Shown one piece after another: positions 29,171 through 33,627 of a DNA stretch of 33,627 nt; positions within the stretch are counted from its first letter, which is position 1; each line of letters starts with the position of its first letter. The notes under the pieces were generated by a model. It was not told the origin of the DNA. It saw only the letters and a program-made list of their open reading frames with translations, and searched no databases. The stretch covers positions 1 through 33,627 of the forward strand of contig CAJOLL010000012.1 of assembly GCA_905235455.1 (NCBI GenBank), written 5' to 3'. The position numbers and the translations under genes are program-made. Source of the stretch: an uncultured Clostridia bacterium. Lineage in GTDB: Bacteria; Bacillota; Clostridia; Saccharofermentanales; Saccharofermentanaceae.

Positions 29171-29884
29171 ATGAAAAGCAGAAAAGGTTTTACATTAATG
29201 GAAATGATGGTCGTCATTGCCATGATCGTATTTATAGCAGCGGTAACATTGACGGGGGTTTCCCAATATATTCAGAGAACCCGTGAGATGACGTATAAGA
29301 CTAATGCCCACGCGGCGCTCCTGGATGAACAGGATCGGATTGTAGACGGATATCTGACATCGACCCGCGCAAGACCGGGCAGTGAGACAACAGATAACGA
29401 GCTCCATCACGATAGCGAGTCCTCTACGAACGGTCATTATTACGGAGGCGGCGGCGGAGGAGGCGGCGGCGGAGAATCCATAGCAGAACCGTCCGCAGAA
29501 CCCACAACGACGCCCCCTACGGAAGACACCACGACAGAAGTCGTTCCTTCCGAACCCGAAGCCACTGAAGCTCCGGCTGCAGGCGGCGGTGTTACGAATG
29601 CAAGAGCGTATGTTACTTATGGGACTCCCGGAAATGGTGTTATTTCGATCGACGATAATTCCGACGGATCCCAGACAGTCAAGCTTCTCTATGACCAATG
29701 GAACGATGGAACCGTAAAACTGACGAGAAACGCTGACGGATCTTATACGATTCAGATGACAAGCGGCAACAGTTATTTCCTTGGCGCCGTCATCGGATAT
29801 AATCACGATTTTTCCAACGGATTCCGACTCACAGATAGTGATAAGACGAACCTGAGCAACACATACGGCCTCAACTTCTCCTGA
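29171..29884 (+). CDS. Orphan type IV prepilin-like protein with Gly-rich insert
   Basis: Prepilin-type protein of 237 residues. The leader MKSRKG is followed by the cleavage/methylation motif FTLMEMMVVIAMIVFIAAVTL; the peptidase would cut after G6, F7 becomes the first mature residue and E11 is the conserved Glu5. After the N-terminal helix (to about residue 60) comes a low-complexity region with ten consecutive Gly (about residues 93-102) and a Pro/Thr/Glu-rich tract. A compact beta-like C-terminal domain (DGSQTVKLLYDQWNDGTVKLT) follows. No pilus ATPase, platform or peptidase gene is in the window. GAGGAGGGA precedes the ATG. A terminator follows at 29977. Confidence 0.88.
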   Translation: MKSRKGFTLMEMMVVIAMIVFIAAVTLTGVSQYIQRTREMTYKTNAHAALLDEQDRIVDGYLTSTRARPGSETTDNELHHDSESSTNGHYYGGGGGGGGGGESIAEPSAEPTTTPPTEDTTTEVVPSEPEATEAPAAGGGVTNARAYVTYGTPGNGVISIDDNSDGSQTVKLLYDQWNDGTVKLTRNADGSYTIQMTSGNSYFLGAVIGYNHDFSNGFRLTDSDKTNLSNTYGLNFS

Positions 29885-29976
29885 TTACGGGAAGTTCAAA
29901 ACAAACAAGAAAAATAACATGACAGATCGTTGACAATTGAGAACTGACAGCAAGGTGCATCACAAAAGACATTACG

Positions 29977-30012
29977 GGGTTGTCTCAAAGCGGATTTGAG
30001 GCAACCCTTTTT
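29977..30012 (+). terminator. Rho-independent terminator after the prepilin gene
   Basis: GGGTTGTCTCAAA (29977-29989) pairs with TTTGAGGCAACCC (29995-30007), with one G-U pair and a 5-base loop, followed by TTTTT. The core is shared with the hairpins at 22383 and 33190. Confidence 0.9.
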
Positions 30013-30066
30013 GCGTGATTTACAATTTTGCAATAATAGCGTGCTTTTTTTGCCATATCCGACAAC

Positions 30067-30072
30067 TATAAT
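30067..30072 (+). promoter_or_regulatory. Candidate -10 of the CAP-protein gene
   Basis: A perfect TATAAT lies 62 bases before the start codon. The -35 region is T-rich without a clear TTGACA. This is the only promoter-like site in the 30013-30134 gap. Confidence 0.4.
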
Positions 30073-30134
30073 TAGTATCGATAGTTAATGTTGTTTGGTG
30101 TTTGGGAAAGGCAACGGATTCGGGGGAGAGACGA

Positions 30135-31124
30135 ATGAAGCTGCAACACTTGGTCAAAGTAATATCGAAAAACCTCACGGTCATTTCGATCGCTTCTGTG
30201 TTTGCGCTGGGTGCTTTTGGCTTGTCTGATATCAAGGACGAATTCCGGGACACTTCCAACTGGTTCAAGCCCCAGCCCGAAACGGATCAGACGGCTTTTG
30301 AAAACATTGCCGAGGATGCAGATGCCAACCCGTTTGAAAAGAACGACAGCGGGCTTTCTCCGGAACTGGATCCGGATCACAAAGAGAGTTCCAAGGAATC
30401 CACGGCTGTAATTACCGCGACGACCACAGAAGAACCATCTTCCGAAACAAGCGATCCTTCAGAAGACAGTTCCGTTCCCTCCGACAGTGAAGAACCGGAC
30501 GATACTGAAGTAACGTCTTCTGCGACGACGGTTCCTGAAACGGAAAAACCTTCGGAAACAGCTGCCGAGACGACTAAGAAGAAAGAAACGAAGGCACCGA
30601 AAGAGACGACTAAGTCACCGGCTGAAACGACGAAGGCATCGACGACGGCAACGCCGAAAGAGACGCCGGCATCGACGACGGCCGCTCCGACCGAAACGAC
30701 AGCGGCACCTTCAGAAACAACCGCCGCTCCGACTCAGTCGGATTCGATGGGGAACACCGGCGGATCATATAACGATGACATGGCGGCAGCCGTCCTGACA
30801 TTGGTAAATAACGAACGTGCCGCAAACGGAAAGGCTCCTCTTTCATGGAGCGGTTCTCTTGCCAAGGCTGCGAAGACCCGTGCAGCTGAGATCGTCGTCA
30901 CATGGGATCATAAGCGCCCGGACGGAAGCGAGTGGTATACGGTAAGTGATCTGACCTATGGTGAGAACCTGGCGAAAGGTCAGTCTTCCGCAGATAAGGT
31001 AATGGAGGCATGGTTGAATTCCGCAGATCATAAGAGGAACATACTGGCGGACTATAAGACGATCGGAGTTGCCTGCTACTATTGCGGCGGCAAGTATTAC
31101 TGGGTGCAGGAGTTTGGATACTGA
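30135..31124 (+). CDS. Membrane-anchored CAP (SCP/PR1) domain protein
   Basis: Extracytoplasmic protein of 329 residues. One N-terminal helix (about residues 13-31, NLTVISIASVFALGAFGL) acts as signal or anchor. A long Thr/Glu/Ser/Pro-rich linker follows (repeats of ETTAAPS and ETTK type, about residues 80-205). The CAP domain fills residues 213-329 with its hallmark His and Glu residues in WDHKRPDGSEW, YGENLA and SADHKRNIL. CAP proteins are secreted, and their roles in bacteria are poorly defined. The ATG at 30135 follows GGGGGAG; an in-frame start 11 codons upstream is rejected. It slightly overlaps the start of the DUF2752 gene. Confidence 0.9.
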   Translation: MKLQHLVKVISKNLTVISIASVFALGAFGLSDIKDEFRDTSNWFKPQPETDQTAFENIAEDADANPFEKNDSGLSPELDPDHKESSKESTAVITATTTEEPSSETSDPSEDSSVPSDSEEPDDTEVTSSATTVPETEKPSETAAETTKKKETKAPKETTKSPAETTKASTTATPKETPASTTAAPTETTAAPSETTAAPTQSDSMGNTGGSYNDDMAAAVLTLVNNERAANGKAPLSWSGSLAKAAKTRAAEIVVTWDHKRPDGSEWYTVSDLTYGENLAKGQSSADKVMEAWLNSADHKRNILADYKTIGVACYYCGGKYYWVQEFGY

Positions 31125-31563
31125 CAGAAAGAAATCCCCGTTGATATTCCGCAATTACGTACGGTGGCCGCTCATGATCCTCATGGTGGCGACCGTCTTT
31201 TTGGGTCTTCTTTTTATGATCATTATAGACCCGATGAAGACGCCCGGTGCGACGCCGACCTGCTTTACCTACACACATTTCGGGATCTATTGTCCGGGCT
31301 GCGGAAATACCAGAGCTCTTCACGCGCTCGTCCACGGACATATTCCTGAAATGTTCGGATACAATCTGCTGTTTCCGTTTGCGGTCATCATTCTGGCATG
31401 GTATTTTTGCGTGGGAATCAGTACACTGCTGTTTAAAAAGAGAGTCATGTGGATCCCGAGCCGGATCCCGACGGCAGGAGCGATCGGTATCGGAGTTGCC
31501 ATAGTGCTTTTCACGGTGCTGCGGAATATTCCGGTATGGCCATTTACGATACTGGCTCCCTGA
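31114..31563 (+). CDS. DUF2752 membrane protein
   Basis: Small integral membrane protein of about 149 residues, with helices near the N-terminus (MILMVATVFLGLLFMIIID), in the middle (LLFPFAVIILAWYFCVGI) and at the C-terminus (AIGIGVAIVLFTVL). The DUF2752 signature YCPGCGNTRALHAL is complete. Its function is unknown. The start is uncertain: TTG at 31114 is reported because it keeps the basic N-terminus DRKKSPLIFRNYVRW, but its ribosome binding site is too close. TTG 31069, TTG 31141 and ATG 31174 are alternatives. It is followed 13 bp later by the first zinc-ribbon gene, clearly in the same operon. Confidence 0.8.
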   Translation: MDTDRKKSPLIFRNYVRWPLMILMVATVFLGLLFMIIIDPMKTPGATPTCFTYTHFGIYCPGCGNTRALHALVHGHIPEMFGYNLLFPFAVIILAWYFCVGISTLLFKKRVMWIPSRIPTAGAIGIGVAIVLFTVLRNIPVWPFTILAP

Positions 31564-31576
31564 AAGGAGGAAGAAC

Positions 31577-32068
31577 ATGTCCAAATGTATCTATTGCGGA
31601 AATGAAACGGGAGGGACACAGTTCTGCCAGAGCTGCGGTGCCAAAGTAGACGGCGTCCTTATCGAACAGGCGGCTCCGGTGGAGGAAAAGGCGGAGACTC
31701 CGGAGGTGATCACTCCCGAAAGGATTGACCCTCAGGACAATACTGCGTCGGGAAATTTCTACAGACCGCAGGAGGCCAAGGGACTTTTGACTGCGAACAT
31801 CGTCGTTCTGGTTCTTGCGATCGTCATGTGCTGGCAAACGATCGGTATCACGATCCTTGCCATGATCTTTTCGATCATTGGTATCGTAAATGCATCGAAA
31901 GTAAAAAGTGCGGCAAGCGAATTCGAGGCGCAGCACAGGAAAAGCACGGCGACTGTAATGTTTATCCTGGGGCTTGTCGTTCTTTTTGCGGGTTTTCTGG
32001 TTTATCTTATCCTGAAAATTCTGAAGGTCGTGACGAAAAATATATTCGGAAGTATTTTCGGGCTTTGA
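31577..32068 (+). CDS. Zinc-ribbon protein with CD225/DUF4190-like membrane domain (1)
   Basis: Protein of 163 residues. An N-terminal zinc ribbon (C4, C7, C17, C20 in CIYCGNETGGTQFCQSCG) is followed by a flexible acidic linker and two hydrophobic segments (about residues 69-103 and 126-150). The segment IFSIIGIVNASKVKSA between helices recalls CD225/dispanin or DUF4190 proteins. The function is unknown; such proteins are usually small membrane proteins with the ribbon in the cytoplasm. A strong AAAGGAGG lies 6 bases ahead of the ATG. It is the first of three related genes. The next gene's -35 box overlaps its stop codon. Confidence 0.85.
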   Translation: MSKCIYCGNETGGTQFCQSCGAKVDGVLIEQAAPVEEKAETPEVITPERIDPQDNTASGNFYRPQEAKGLLTANIVVLVLAIVMCWQTIGITILAMIFSIIGIVNASKVKSAASEFEAQHRKSTATVMFILGLVVLFAGFLVYLILKILKVVTKNIFGSIFGL

Positions 32069-32094
32069 CCGTGACTTAATGGTTAGGTTATAAT
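32065..32094 (+). promoter_or_regulatory. Promoter of the second zinc-ribbon gene
   Basis: TTGACC (32065-32070) and TATAAT (32089-32094) are spaced by 18 bp. The -35 box contains the TGA stop codon of the preceding gene. This allows the downstream genes to be expressed apart from the first. Confidence 0.7.
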
Positions 32095-32133
32095 GTTGTT
32101 TTAGAAAATGAAAGAAAACAGGAGGTAATTCTT

Positions 32134-32682
32134 ATGCCAGCTTGTAGATATTGCGGTCAGGAAACGGGCGGATCCGCTTTCTGCCAGAACTGTGGTGCCA
32201 AAGTCGAGGAGCAGCCGGTCATTCCGTCTCCGATCCCGCAGGTGATGCCGAATTCGATCCCGACGGAACCGATCCAGACACAGAATGCATCTTATACGAT
32301 TCCGACAATGCCGTCGTTTTATACACCGCGCGGTGCCGGCGGACTTCTTGCCGGAAACATCATCGCACTTATCCTTGGTGTGCTCACATGCTGCTTTCTC
32401 CTTCCGATCGTATCGATCATCGTTTCGATTATCGGTATCGTTTTTGCTTCTAAAGTAAAGAACAGCGCCAATGCAGCCGAGGAAAAATCCAACCGCACGA
32501 TCGCTCTTGTCATGATGCTTATCGCTTTTGCGTTCGTCATCATCGGTTCTGCGCTTTTTACAGTCGGCGTATATCAGGAGTACGGCGGATTTGAAGGATT
32601 CTTCGATTACATCAGTGAGCAGGTCGAAGAACAGGATGCAAAAAGAAAGATCTTTGCCGCTGCGATCAAAAGATTCTTCTGA
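32134..32682 (+). CDS. Zinc-ribbon protein with CD225/DUF4190-like membrane domain (2)
   Basis: Paralogue of the preceding gene, 182 residues, with the same layout. Zinc-ribbon cysteines are C4, C7, C17 and C20 (CRYCGQETGGSAFCQNCGAK). A Pro-rich linker (PVIPSPIPQVMPNSIPTEP) replaces the acidic one. Two hydrophobic segments follow, the first with LTCCFLLPIVSIIVSIIGIVFASKVKNSA, close to the CD225 pattern. The C-terminus adds a charged helix (EGFFDYISEQVEEQDAKRKIF). Function unknown. It has its own promoter and an AGGAGG ribosome binding site. Confidence 0.85.
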   Translation: MPACRYCGQETGGSAFCQNCGAKVEEQPVIPSPIPQVMPNSIPTEPIQTQNASYTIPTMPSFYTPRGAGGLLAGNIIALILGVLTCCFLLPIVSIIVSIIGIVFASKVKNSANAAEEKSNRTIALVMMLIAFAFVIIGSALFTVGVYQEYGGFEGFFDYISEQVEEQDAKRKIFAAAIKRFF

Positions 32683-32703
32683 TTATTTTCTTGAGGTCGA
32701 TGC

Positions 32704-33141
32704 ATGCGTTGCGGTAACTGTCAAAAAGAACTTTCGGAAAACGCTTTGTTCTGCCCGGATTGCGGAATGAAGATCGACAGAAGCGGATTTTCGGAGAATC
32801 TGCCGGATCCTATGGCATCCGTACATTCTCCGATCCTGAATACATATGATGAAAGTGATTATTATCACATCGATGCGACGGAAACTCCGGATTTTGAGGC
32901 AATGCGCGGCATCTCCATTGTTCTGATCGTTGCTTCGGCATTCTCCTTTTTGGGGATCCTTTTCCCGATGCCGCTTGCGATCGTAAGTCTGGTAAAAGCC
33001 TGCACGGGAGTCGACGAGAAAAATCCGTATGCCGCTCGGCGAGCGCATGATCTTTGTCGTACTCTGGTCATCATTTCGATCATTGGCGTCATATTGATCT
33101 GGACCGGACTGTTCGCCTTTTTCTATTTGCGTGATGCTTAA
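32704..33141 (+). CDS. Zinc-ribbon protein with CD225/DUF4190-like membrane domain (3)
   Basis: Third member of the row, 145 residues and more divergent. The zinc ribbon is C3, C6, C17, C20 (CGNCQKELSENALFCPDCGMK). The membrane part has two hydrophobic segments (about 72-98 and 118-142) with LAIVSLVKACTG in place of the SKVK motif of the others. The start follows GAGG at a 7-base spacing and lies 21 bp after the previous stop. Function unknown. A terminator at 33190 closes the unit. Confidence 0.82.
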   Translation: MRCGNCQKELSENALFCPDCGMKIDRSGFSENLPDPMASVHSPILNTYDESDYYHIDATETPDFEAMRGISIVLIVASAFSFLGILFPMPLAIVSLVKACTGVDEKNPYAARRAHDLCRTLVIISIIGVILIWTGLFAFFYLRDA

Positions 33142-33189
33142 AGCAGACAGCTGAAATAGAAAAGAGCAAAATAATAGAACTCGCATGCT

Positions 33190-33227
33190 GAGGGGTTGCC
33201 TCAAATGAAGTGAGACGGCCCCTCTTT
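33190..33227 (+). terminator. Terminator after the third zinc-ribbon gene
   Basis: GAGGGGTTGCCTCA (33190-33203) pairs with TGAGACGGCCCCTC (33211-33224), with two G-U pairs and one C-A mismatch, followed by TTTCTT. It resembles the hairpins at 22383 and 29977. Confidence 0.8.
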
Positions 33228-33351
33228 CTTGAATCAAAGACAAGGGGAGGAACTCTTTGAGTTGAGACAGTGACTTTGTTTTTTCTGAAAAATCTTTGTC
33301 AATTTATTGTGAAAATCGCCAAGAAAGAATGAAAAATATCTAAAATCGTTG

Positions 33352-33370
33352 TATAATTGTTTTTACAATT
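33352..33370 (+). promoter_or_regulatory. -10 box and dyad before the last zinc-ribbon gene
   Basis: TATAAT (33352-33357) is immediately followed by, and partly overlaps, an inverted repeat AATTGT (33355-33360) and ACAATT (33365-33370) around TTTT. The dyad is placed where a repressor would block the promoter. No clear -35 was found. Confidence 0.45.
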
Positions 33371-33391
33371 CATGCAATGAGGAGAATAGCG

Positions 33392-33627
33392 ATGAAGAAG
33401 TGTCCTGTATGTGGCGTTATGATGGGTGATAACGTTGCGCGTTGCTTCATGTGTAAGTACGATTTCCAAAAAGCCGCTCGCGAAGGAGAGGATGCCGCAA
33501 GGGAAGAAGCCAGTGCGAACATCAAACGGAGTGAGCAGGAAGCGAGTGCACGTGTTGAACAAAAACGCACCGAAGAGGAAAAAATAATCGCGGAAATGAA
33601 GAATCGCAATCAGCGTGAGATCGAAAC
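33392..33627 (+). CDS. Zinc-ribbon protein with charged helix (truncated at right edge)
   Basis: Open frame of 78 codons running off the window. It begins with a zinc ribbon (C4, C7, C18, C21 in CPVCGVMMGDNVARCFMCKYDF) and continues into a Glu/Ala/Arg-rich stretch (REGEDAAREEASANIKRSEQ and onward) that looks like a long helix or coiled coil. No membrane segment is visible yet. GAGGAGA lies about 8 bases before the ATG. It is fourth in a row of zinc-ribbon genes but has its own promoter after a terminator, and its second half differs from the other three. Confidence 0.8.
   Translation, partial: MKKCPVCGVMMGDNVARCFMCKYDFQKAAREGEDAAREEASANIKRSEQEASARVEQKRTEEEKIIAEMKNRNQREIE

Follow-up and report, generated by a model that had tools for sequence, protein, structure and literature searches.

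Genes at the right end of the contig

We analysed a stretch of 33,627 nucleotides (the window), which is the entire contig C12 of a 2.17-Mb assembly from a clostridial lineage. The close relatives of this genome used for comparison are Clostridiales metagenome-assembled genomes from the omasum, reticulum and rumen. At the right end of the window, a row of plus-strand genes starts with a gene encoding a DUF2752 membrane protein (31114..31563, Pfam PF10825). This gene is followed by ZR1 (31577..32068), which encodes a zinc ribbon, a linker and a CD225/DUF4190-like membrane hairpin, by its tandem copy ZR2 (32134..32682), with a zinc ribbon, a linker and a membrane hairpin, by ZR3 (32704..33141), with a zinc ribbon, a linker and a distant hairpin, and by ZR4 (from 33377 or 33392 to 33627, running off the contig end), with a ribbon, a long coil and a DUF4177-like end. 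An earlier note on this DNA had described a DUF2752 gene, three ribbon-hairpin genes and a fourth ribbon gene with a helical tail, and we found all of them as described. What it had missed is that the pairing of DUF2752 with a hairpin gene is general across bacteria and not a clostridial peculiarity, as genome comparisons in this study show.

The first gene of the row likely starts with TTG at 31114, overlapping the end of the gene for a CAP-domain protein. Its product is a clear member of DUF2752, a family without described function, and scored 58.2 bits against a curated cut-off of 27 (60.9 bits in the genome search). The protein has three helices, the sequence C-x9-CPGCGNTRA after the first helix, and LRNIPxxPF at the C-terminus. 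The cysteine motif (C50-x9-C60PGCG) stands between helices 1 and 2, and the earlier reading of a CPGCG-bearing DUF2752 protein at the head of the row proved correct. Across the family the motif is strongly kept: the spacing of C-x9-CxxC is 9 in 150 of 151 non-redundant relatives, and CPxCG is present in 141 of 153 sequences. Of the 115 genomes examined from the bacterial family of the window, 58 contain DUF2752, as do about half of the sampled Bacteroidota genomes. In the literature that we searched, we found no paper naming DUF2752.

ZR1, ZR2 and ZR3 are built alike, with an N-terminal CxxC-x(9-10)-CxxC, a variable linker and two to three hydrophobic helices. ZR1 and ZR2 are 38% identical and ZR3 is further off. 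ZR1 is preceded by the Shine-Dalgarno sequence aaaggagg. The window genome has no other genes of the ZR1/ZR2 type, but a single hairpin gene of a second type is located elsewhere in it.

DUF2752 and hairpin genes are paired in many phyla

DUF2752 loci were drawn from the bacterial family of the window, an even phylum sample, an even Bacteroidota sample and a GTDB genome scan, which covered Clostridia, Verrucomicrobia, Lentisphaerae, Xanthomonadaceae, Acidobacteria, Planctomycetes, Actinobacteria and others. We counted five classes of hairpin partners (CD225, DUF4190, DUF4234, TM2 and the ZR type) and found a hairpin gene on the same strand, at most 300 bp from DUF2752, in 165 of 200 loci from at least 7 phyla. 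These counts are loci and not independent events, and the GTDB scan contains a disproportionate share of Xanthomonas. An independent scattering of these genes, which the earlier note had named as the result that would speak against a joint system, is thus not what we observed for DUF2752 and the hairpin genes.

Matches to our partner models were found in 206 of 3,846 nearby open reading frames (ORFs), compared to 1 of 5,388 ORFs at distances above 2.5 kb within these loci; this comparison is partly circular, because the partner models were built from DUF2752 neighbours. Independently of the in-house models, Pfam assigned 58 representative partners to CD225 (24), DUF4190 (18), DUF4234 (7) and TM2 (4), and recognised Zn_Ribbon_1 in 20 of the same 58 proteins. 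The reciprocal test, starting from Pfam CD225 in randomly drawn genomes with the centre genomes set aside, is free of the circularity of the count of nearby ORFs. Here, CD225 genes adjoined DUF2752 in 2/2 Pseudomonadota and 9/11 Actinomycetota loci (11/13). Among 10 genomes picked for DUF2752, 8 had exactly one CD225 gene, and in 7 of these it adjoined DUF2752, once divergently.

The genes flanking the DUF2752-hairpin pairs vary between lineages. The order within the pair also depends on the class of the partner: CD225, TM2 and DUF4234 genes are mostly located upstream of DUF2752, and DUF4190 genes and the ZR hairpins of the genus mostly downstream. Because both the flanks and the order differ, the data suggest that the pairing arose by repeated independent joining rather than as one frozen cluster.

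The N-terminal parts of the partners vary as well. Zinc ribbons are not confined to the window: Lysobacterales, Acidobacteria, Lentisphaerae and Actinobacteria also have CD225 partners with a ribbon. In some DUF2752 neighbours (loci L137, L139, L171 and L220), a GYF_2-like domain, which would be another variable N-terminal input, replaces the zinc ribbon; in L139 and L171 it is joined to a CD225 hairpin. We also observed that in one genus of the phylum (L108, L110, L111, L112 and L114) a gene for a UppP/BacA-like undecaprenyl-diphosphatase (EGLTEFLPVSSTGHL) is located upstream of DUF2752, either directly adjacent or one gene apart, in loci with no recognised hairpin partner.

Within the genus of the window, the order DUF2752, ZR hairpin gene(s), one ZR3 and ZR4 was found in 21/21 complete loci, which is beyond chance. 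The association of DUF2752 with the ribbon-hairpin genes is thus real, as suggested earlier, and conserved. A ZR1 ortholog follows DUF2752 in the genus loci, and ZR3 always comes after the ZR1/ZR2 type. The number of ZR hairpin genes is one in 12 loci, two in 4 (the window included) and three in 5. The tandem copies diverge in their linkers, as had been proposed, and also in their number (1-3). Since the whole genus stretch is syntenic (pilin, CAP protein, DUF2752, ribbons, ZR4 and an EF-G-like gene), the genus data alone cannot separate shared function from synteny.

Relationship of the hairpins to CD225 and DUF4190

The earlier note had likened the membrane domains of the row to CD225 and DUF4190. 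Searches of ZR1 and ZR2 against curated Pfam membrane families gave no match: neither protein reached the gathering score of CD225 (PF04505), which was not listed at E <= 1, or that of DUF4190 (PF13828). Their zinc ribbons also scored below the cut-off of 25 (PF13240 and related; 14 bits for ZR1 and 16 bits for ZR2), while that of ZR3 exceeded it (Zn_Ribbon_1, 27.7 bits). CxxC-CxxC is nevertheless invariant in the ZR1/ZR2-type ribbons of the genus.

The likeness emerged only from profile-profile comparison. When the membrane parts were aligned with hhalign, the ZR1/ZR2 group matched the CD225 partners at 95.8% (E 8e-9) and the DUF4190 partners at 90.8%, and the CD225 and DUF4190 partners matched each other at 93.3%. 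By this measure, the hairpin of ZR1 and ZR2 is a divergent relative of CD225/DUF4190, and the earlier comparison was right for these two proteins. ZR3 reached only 56% against CD225, and for ZR3 the comparison is plausible. Outside this group, DUF4234 compared with CD225 at 38%, at most doubtful, and TM2 showed no profile similarity to the other hairpin classes.

The CD225/dispanin family (IFITM; PF04505, which includes bacterial members) resembles the window proteins in a membrane hairpin, whose CC tip is found among the window proteins in ZR2, a positively charged cytosolic loop and a second helix. The window proteins differ by their N-terminal zinc ribbon and by a Pfam score below detection, and no DUF2752 partner has been reported for the animal members. 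DUF4190 and NF040945 ('CCC motif membrane protein') match the hairpin layout of the window proteins, and DUF4190 is a common DUF2752 neighbour in Clostridia and Bacteroidota. Both families are uncharacterised and mostly lack a ribbon, and the window proteins remain under their curated cut-offs (ZR2 scored 21 bits with NF040945, which is sub-threshold).

Cysteines, topology and predicted structures

Cysteine makes up 3.4-6.4% of the membrane segments of the partners, compared to 1.6% in other membrane proteins from these loci, which served as controls. A CC pair was found in 83% of the CD225 partners, 79% of the DUF4190 partners and 53% of the ZR group. At the hairpin tip, ZR2 has CC, ZR1 has a single C, and ZR3 has none.

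For the topology of DUF2752, we counted lysine and arginine residues. The 15 residues preceding helix 1 contain 3.6 of them, the 14-residue loop that connects helices 2 and 3 contains 3.5, and the C-terminus contains 0.8. Because of this charge distribution (the positive-inside rule), the cysteine loop is probably located on the outer side of the membrane.

We modelled a natural CD225-DUF2752 pair, read through its stop codon, as one chain. Both halves were predicted to fold well (mean pLDDT 88). In the CD225 half, helices 6-15 and 19-36 form a short hairpin that turns at C16-C17 and is followed by a long helix; in the DUF2752 half, cysteines 130, 140 and 143 surround a short helix following helix 1. 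The model of ZR2 (helices 69-84, 91-109, 114-150 and 153-181; mean pLDDT 73) likewise consists of a hairpin, a long helix and a tail, as in the CD225 prediction. The partner hairpin is predicted to be re-entrant with CC at its tip.

Foldseek and VIA searches with the models returned no significant fold match; the VIA rows mostly concerned the CD225 half and left the DUF2752 fold unplaced. The ZR2 hairpin model resembled ninjurin NINJ1 (PDB 9bia; Foldseek probability 0.89, TM 0.56 on target), a match that is not significant (E 1.4, 13% identity) and is given as a lead only. A search of PDB sequences with the DUF2752 and ZR alignments gave nothing meaningful; a claudin found at E 0.007 was set aside as a match of hydrophobic segments.

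Transcription of the row and the status of ZR4

Since promoter-like elements precede ZR2 and ZR4, the row is probably expressed as two or three transcripts and not as one. The element before ZR2 (TTGACC-18-TATAAT, 32065..32094, plus strand) is a consensus match only, and the region holds 3 such sites compared to 3.4 expected by chance. The promoter of ZR4, with its TATAAT element (33329..33357, plus strand), is kept in 21 genomes, and its core (GTTGTATAATTG) is preserved across 21/21 loci examined. The promoter region as a whole (33329-33375) is near-identical in the 21 genomes (GTTGTATAATTGTTTTACAATTC). We also observed a short inverted repeat, ATTGT...ACAAT, which overlaps and follows the -10 element of this promoter and is a candidate operator.

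ZR4 continues on the minus strand of contig C54, with a 19-base overlap, and encodes about 690 amino acids in total. In this protein family, a near-invariant ribbon (MKKCPVCGVMMGDNVARCFMCKYDF) is followed by a long coiled coil, and the end resembles DUF4177; the DUF4177 score of the ortholog in locus L034 is just under the cut-off. Of 113 genomes from the bacterial family of the window, 103 have a relative of ZR4, and many of these genomes are without DUF2752 or have it elsewhere. Because ZR4 occurs family-wide irrespective of DUF2752 and has its own promoter, we left it out of the unit, and the earlier view of ZR4 as a fourth member of the row was not supported. We judge ZR4 to be a neighbour, a separate coiled-coil protein that is itself conserved and uncharacterised.

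On the other side of the row, the window (29171-31124) encodes a pilin-like protein (GFTLxE leader, poly-Gly stretch) and the CAP-domain protein, which has a long Thr/Pro/Ser-rich region. Both genes are located upstream of DUF2752 in nearly all genus loci. They were considered as parts of the module and dropped, because outside the genus they were not found beside DUF2752, except in a near relative (L066), where DUF2752 has a CAP-like neighbour.

Proposed function and alternative explanations

We consider it probable, with some reserve, that the row is a lineage-specific, amplified form of a widespread two-component membrane module, in which DUF2752 and a hairpin of the CD225/DUF4190 kind form a hetero-oligomer coupled by cysteines; elsewhere the partner is also a DUF4234 or TM2 protein. 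The sequences show the pairing, the kinship of the hairpins and the conservation of the cysteines, from which we infer the complex, its chemistry and its physiological role. In this model, DUF2752 would have its N-terminus inside, and its three cysteines, which stand between helices 1 and 2, would be exposed at the outer face of the membrane. The ribbon of the partner would be cytosolic, and its hairpin would dip into the membrane from inside. With the DUF2752 loop outside and the hairpin dipping from inside, the two cysteine sets could meet within the bilayer, where DUF2752 may hold or modify the hairpin by disulfide exchange, a shared metal or acylation. S-acylation is attractive in view of the S-palmitoylation of mycobacterial CD225 proteins in human cells, where these proteins also restrict influenza virus (PMC4488726). 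The variable N-terminal parts (zinc ribbon, GYF_2 or proline-rich linker) would serve as cytosolic input or adaptor, and the tandem duplication (ZR1, ZR2 and probably ZR3) would therefore give one DUF2752 interchangeable inputs. As with animal CD225 proteins, the output may be that the curvature, rigidity or assembly of the membrane is altered locally.

Several observations weigh against this model. A recognised partner is absent in 35 of 200 loci, some of which have other small membrane proteins or UppP/BacA, and no natural DUF2752-hairpin fusion protein was found among the loci examined. At the second ZR-hairpin locus of the window genome (L245, contig C25), DUF2752 has been lost and the hairpin gene retained, while relatives keep DUF2752. 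The ribbon hairpins of this second genus locus have no CC, which is therefore not essential. In addition, the topology is assigned solely by the positive-inside rule, and the joint model (pTM 0.58) does not fix the mutual placement of CD225 and DUF2752.

A possible, though clearly less probable, explanation is that DUF2752 is a dedicated maturation factor, either a membrane chaperone or a cysteine-modifying or S-acylating enzyme, and not a stable subunit, and that the hairpin proteins act by themselves. This would fit a single DUF2752 serving one to three ZR hairpins and ZR3 in the genus, its pairing with hairpin families as detectably unrelated as TM2, the cysteines common to the partners, and the palmitoylation of mycobacterial CD225 (PMC4488726). 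However, no known acyltransferase motif or fold was recognised in DUF2752, and hairpin genes occur without it too. We regard as improbable a role of the module in membrane defence or in the blocking of fusion, analogous to that of the animal IFITMs and directed, for example, against phage entry. The homology of the partners to CD225, the restriction of influenza virus by mycobacterial CD225 in human cells (PMC4488726) and the patchy distribution over phyla point in this direction, but neither DUF2752 nor the CD225 partners matched PADLOC (ZR2 had only a weak Csx18 match, 8e-4, in a hydrophobic region), one copy per genome is common, and the flanking genes inspected are mostly housekeeping genes conserved within genera and not defence islands.

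Two further explanations were considered. Ordinary conserved synteny, with DUF2752 and small membrane genes adjacent without shared function, would agree with the synteny of the entire genus stretch, but it is very hard to reconcile with a pairing that recurs in many phyla with unrelated flanks, and reciprocally from CD225. The least credible explanation is that the four ribbon genes form one zinc-responsive operon, the system being defined by the ribbons and not by DUF2752. All four adjacent genes do carry CxxC-CxxC ribbons and the row is preserved in the genus, yet ZR4 is found throughout the bacterial family independently of DUF2752, with a conserved promoter of its own, and many partners elsewhere have no ribbon.

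Implications for bacterial IFITM relatives

DUF2752 and the hairpin families are known by name, but to our knowledge the link between DUF2752 and bacterial IFITM proteins is undescribed in the literature that we searched. No report of the pairing of DUF2752 with hairpin proteins was found there, and nothing relevant on CD225 with TM2 or DUF4190 or on bacterial neighbourhoods. The function of bacterial IFITM relatives has been reported as unstudied. As a bolder and rather doubtful extension of the two-component model, DUF2752 may be the one dedicated membrane partner for which bacterial IFITM/CD225 proteins, as well as several unrelated families of hairpins, are clients, and it would act on their intrabilayer cysteines. 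The animal IFITMs would then derive from a bacterial module of two proteins that on transfer lost its DUF2752 half or had it replaced, for example by cellular acyltransferases. The pairing of DUF2752 with hairpin proteins is a first functional lead for DUF2752, and its pairing with CD225 provides a first handle on the role of bacterial IFITM relatives, together with a concrete genetic and biochemical test.

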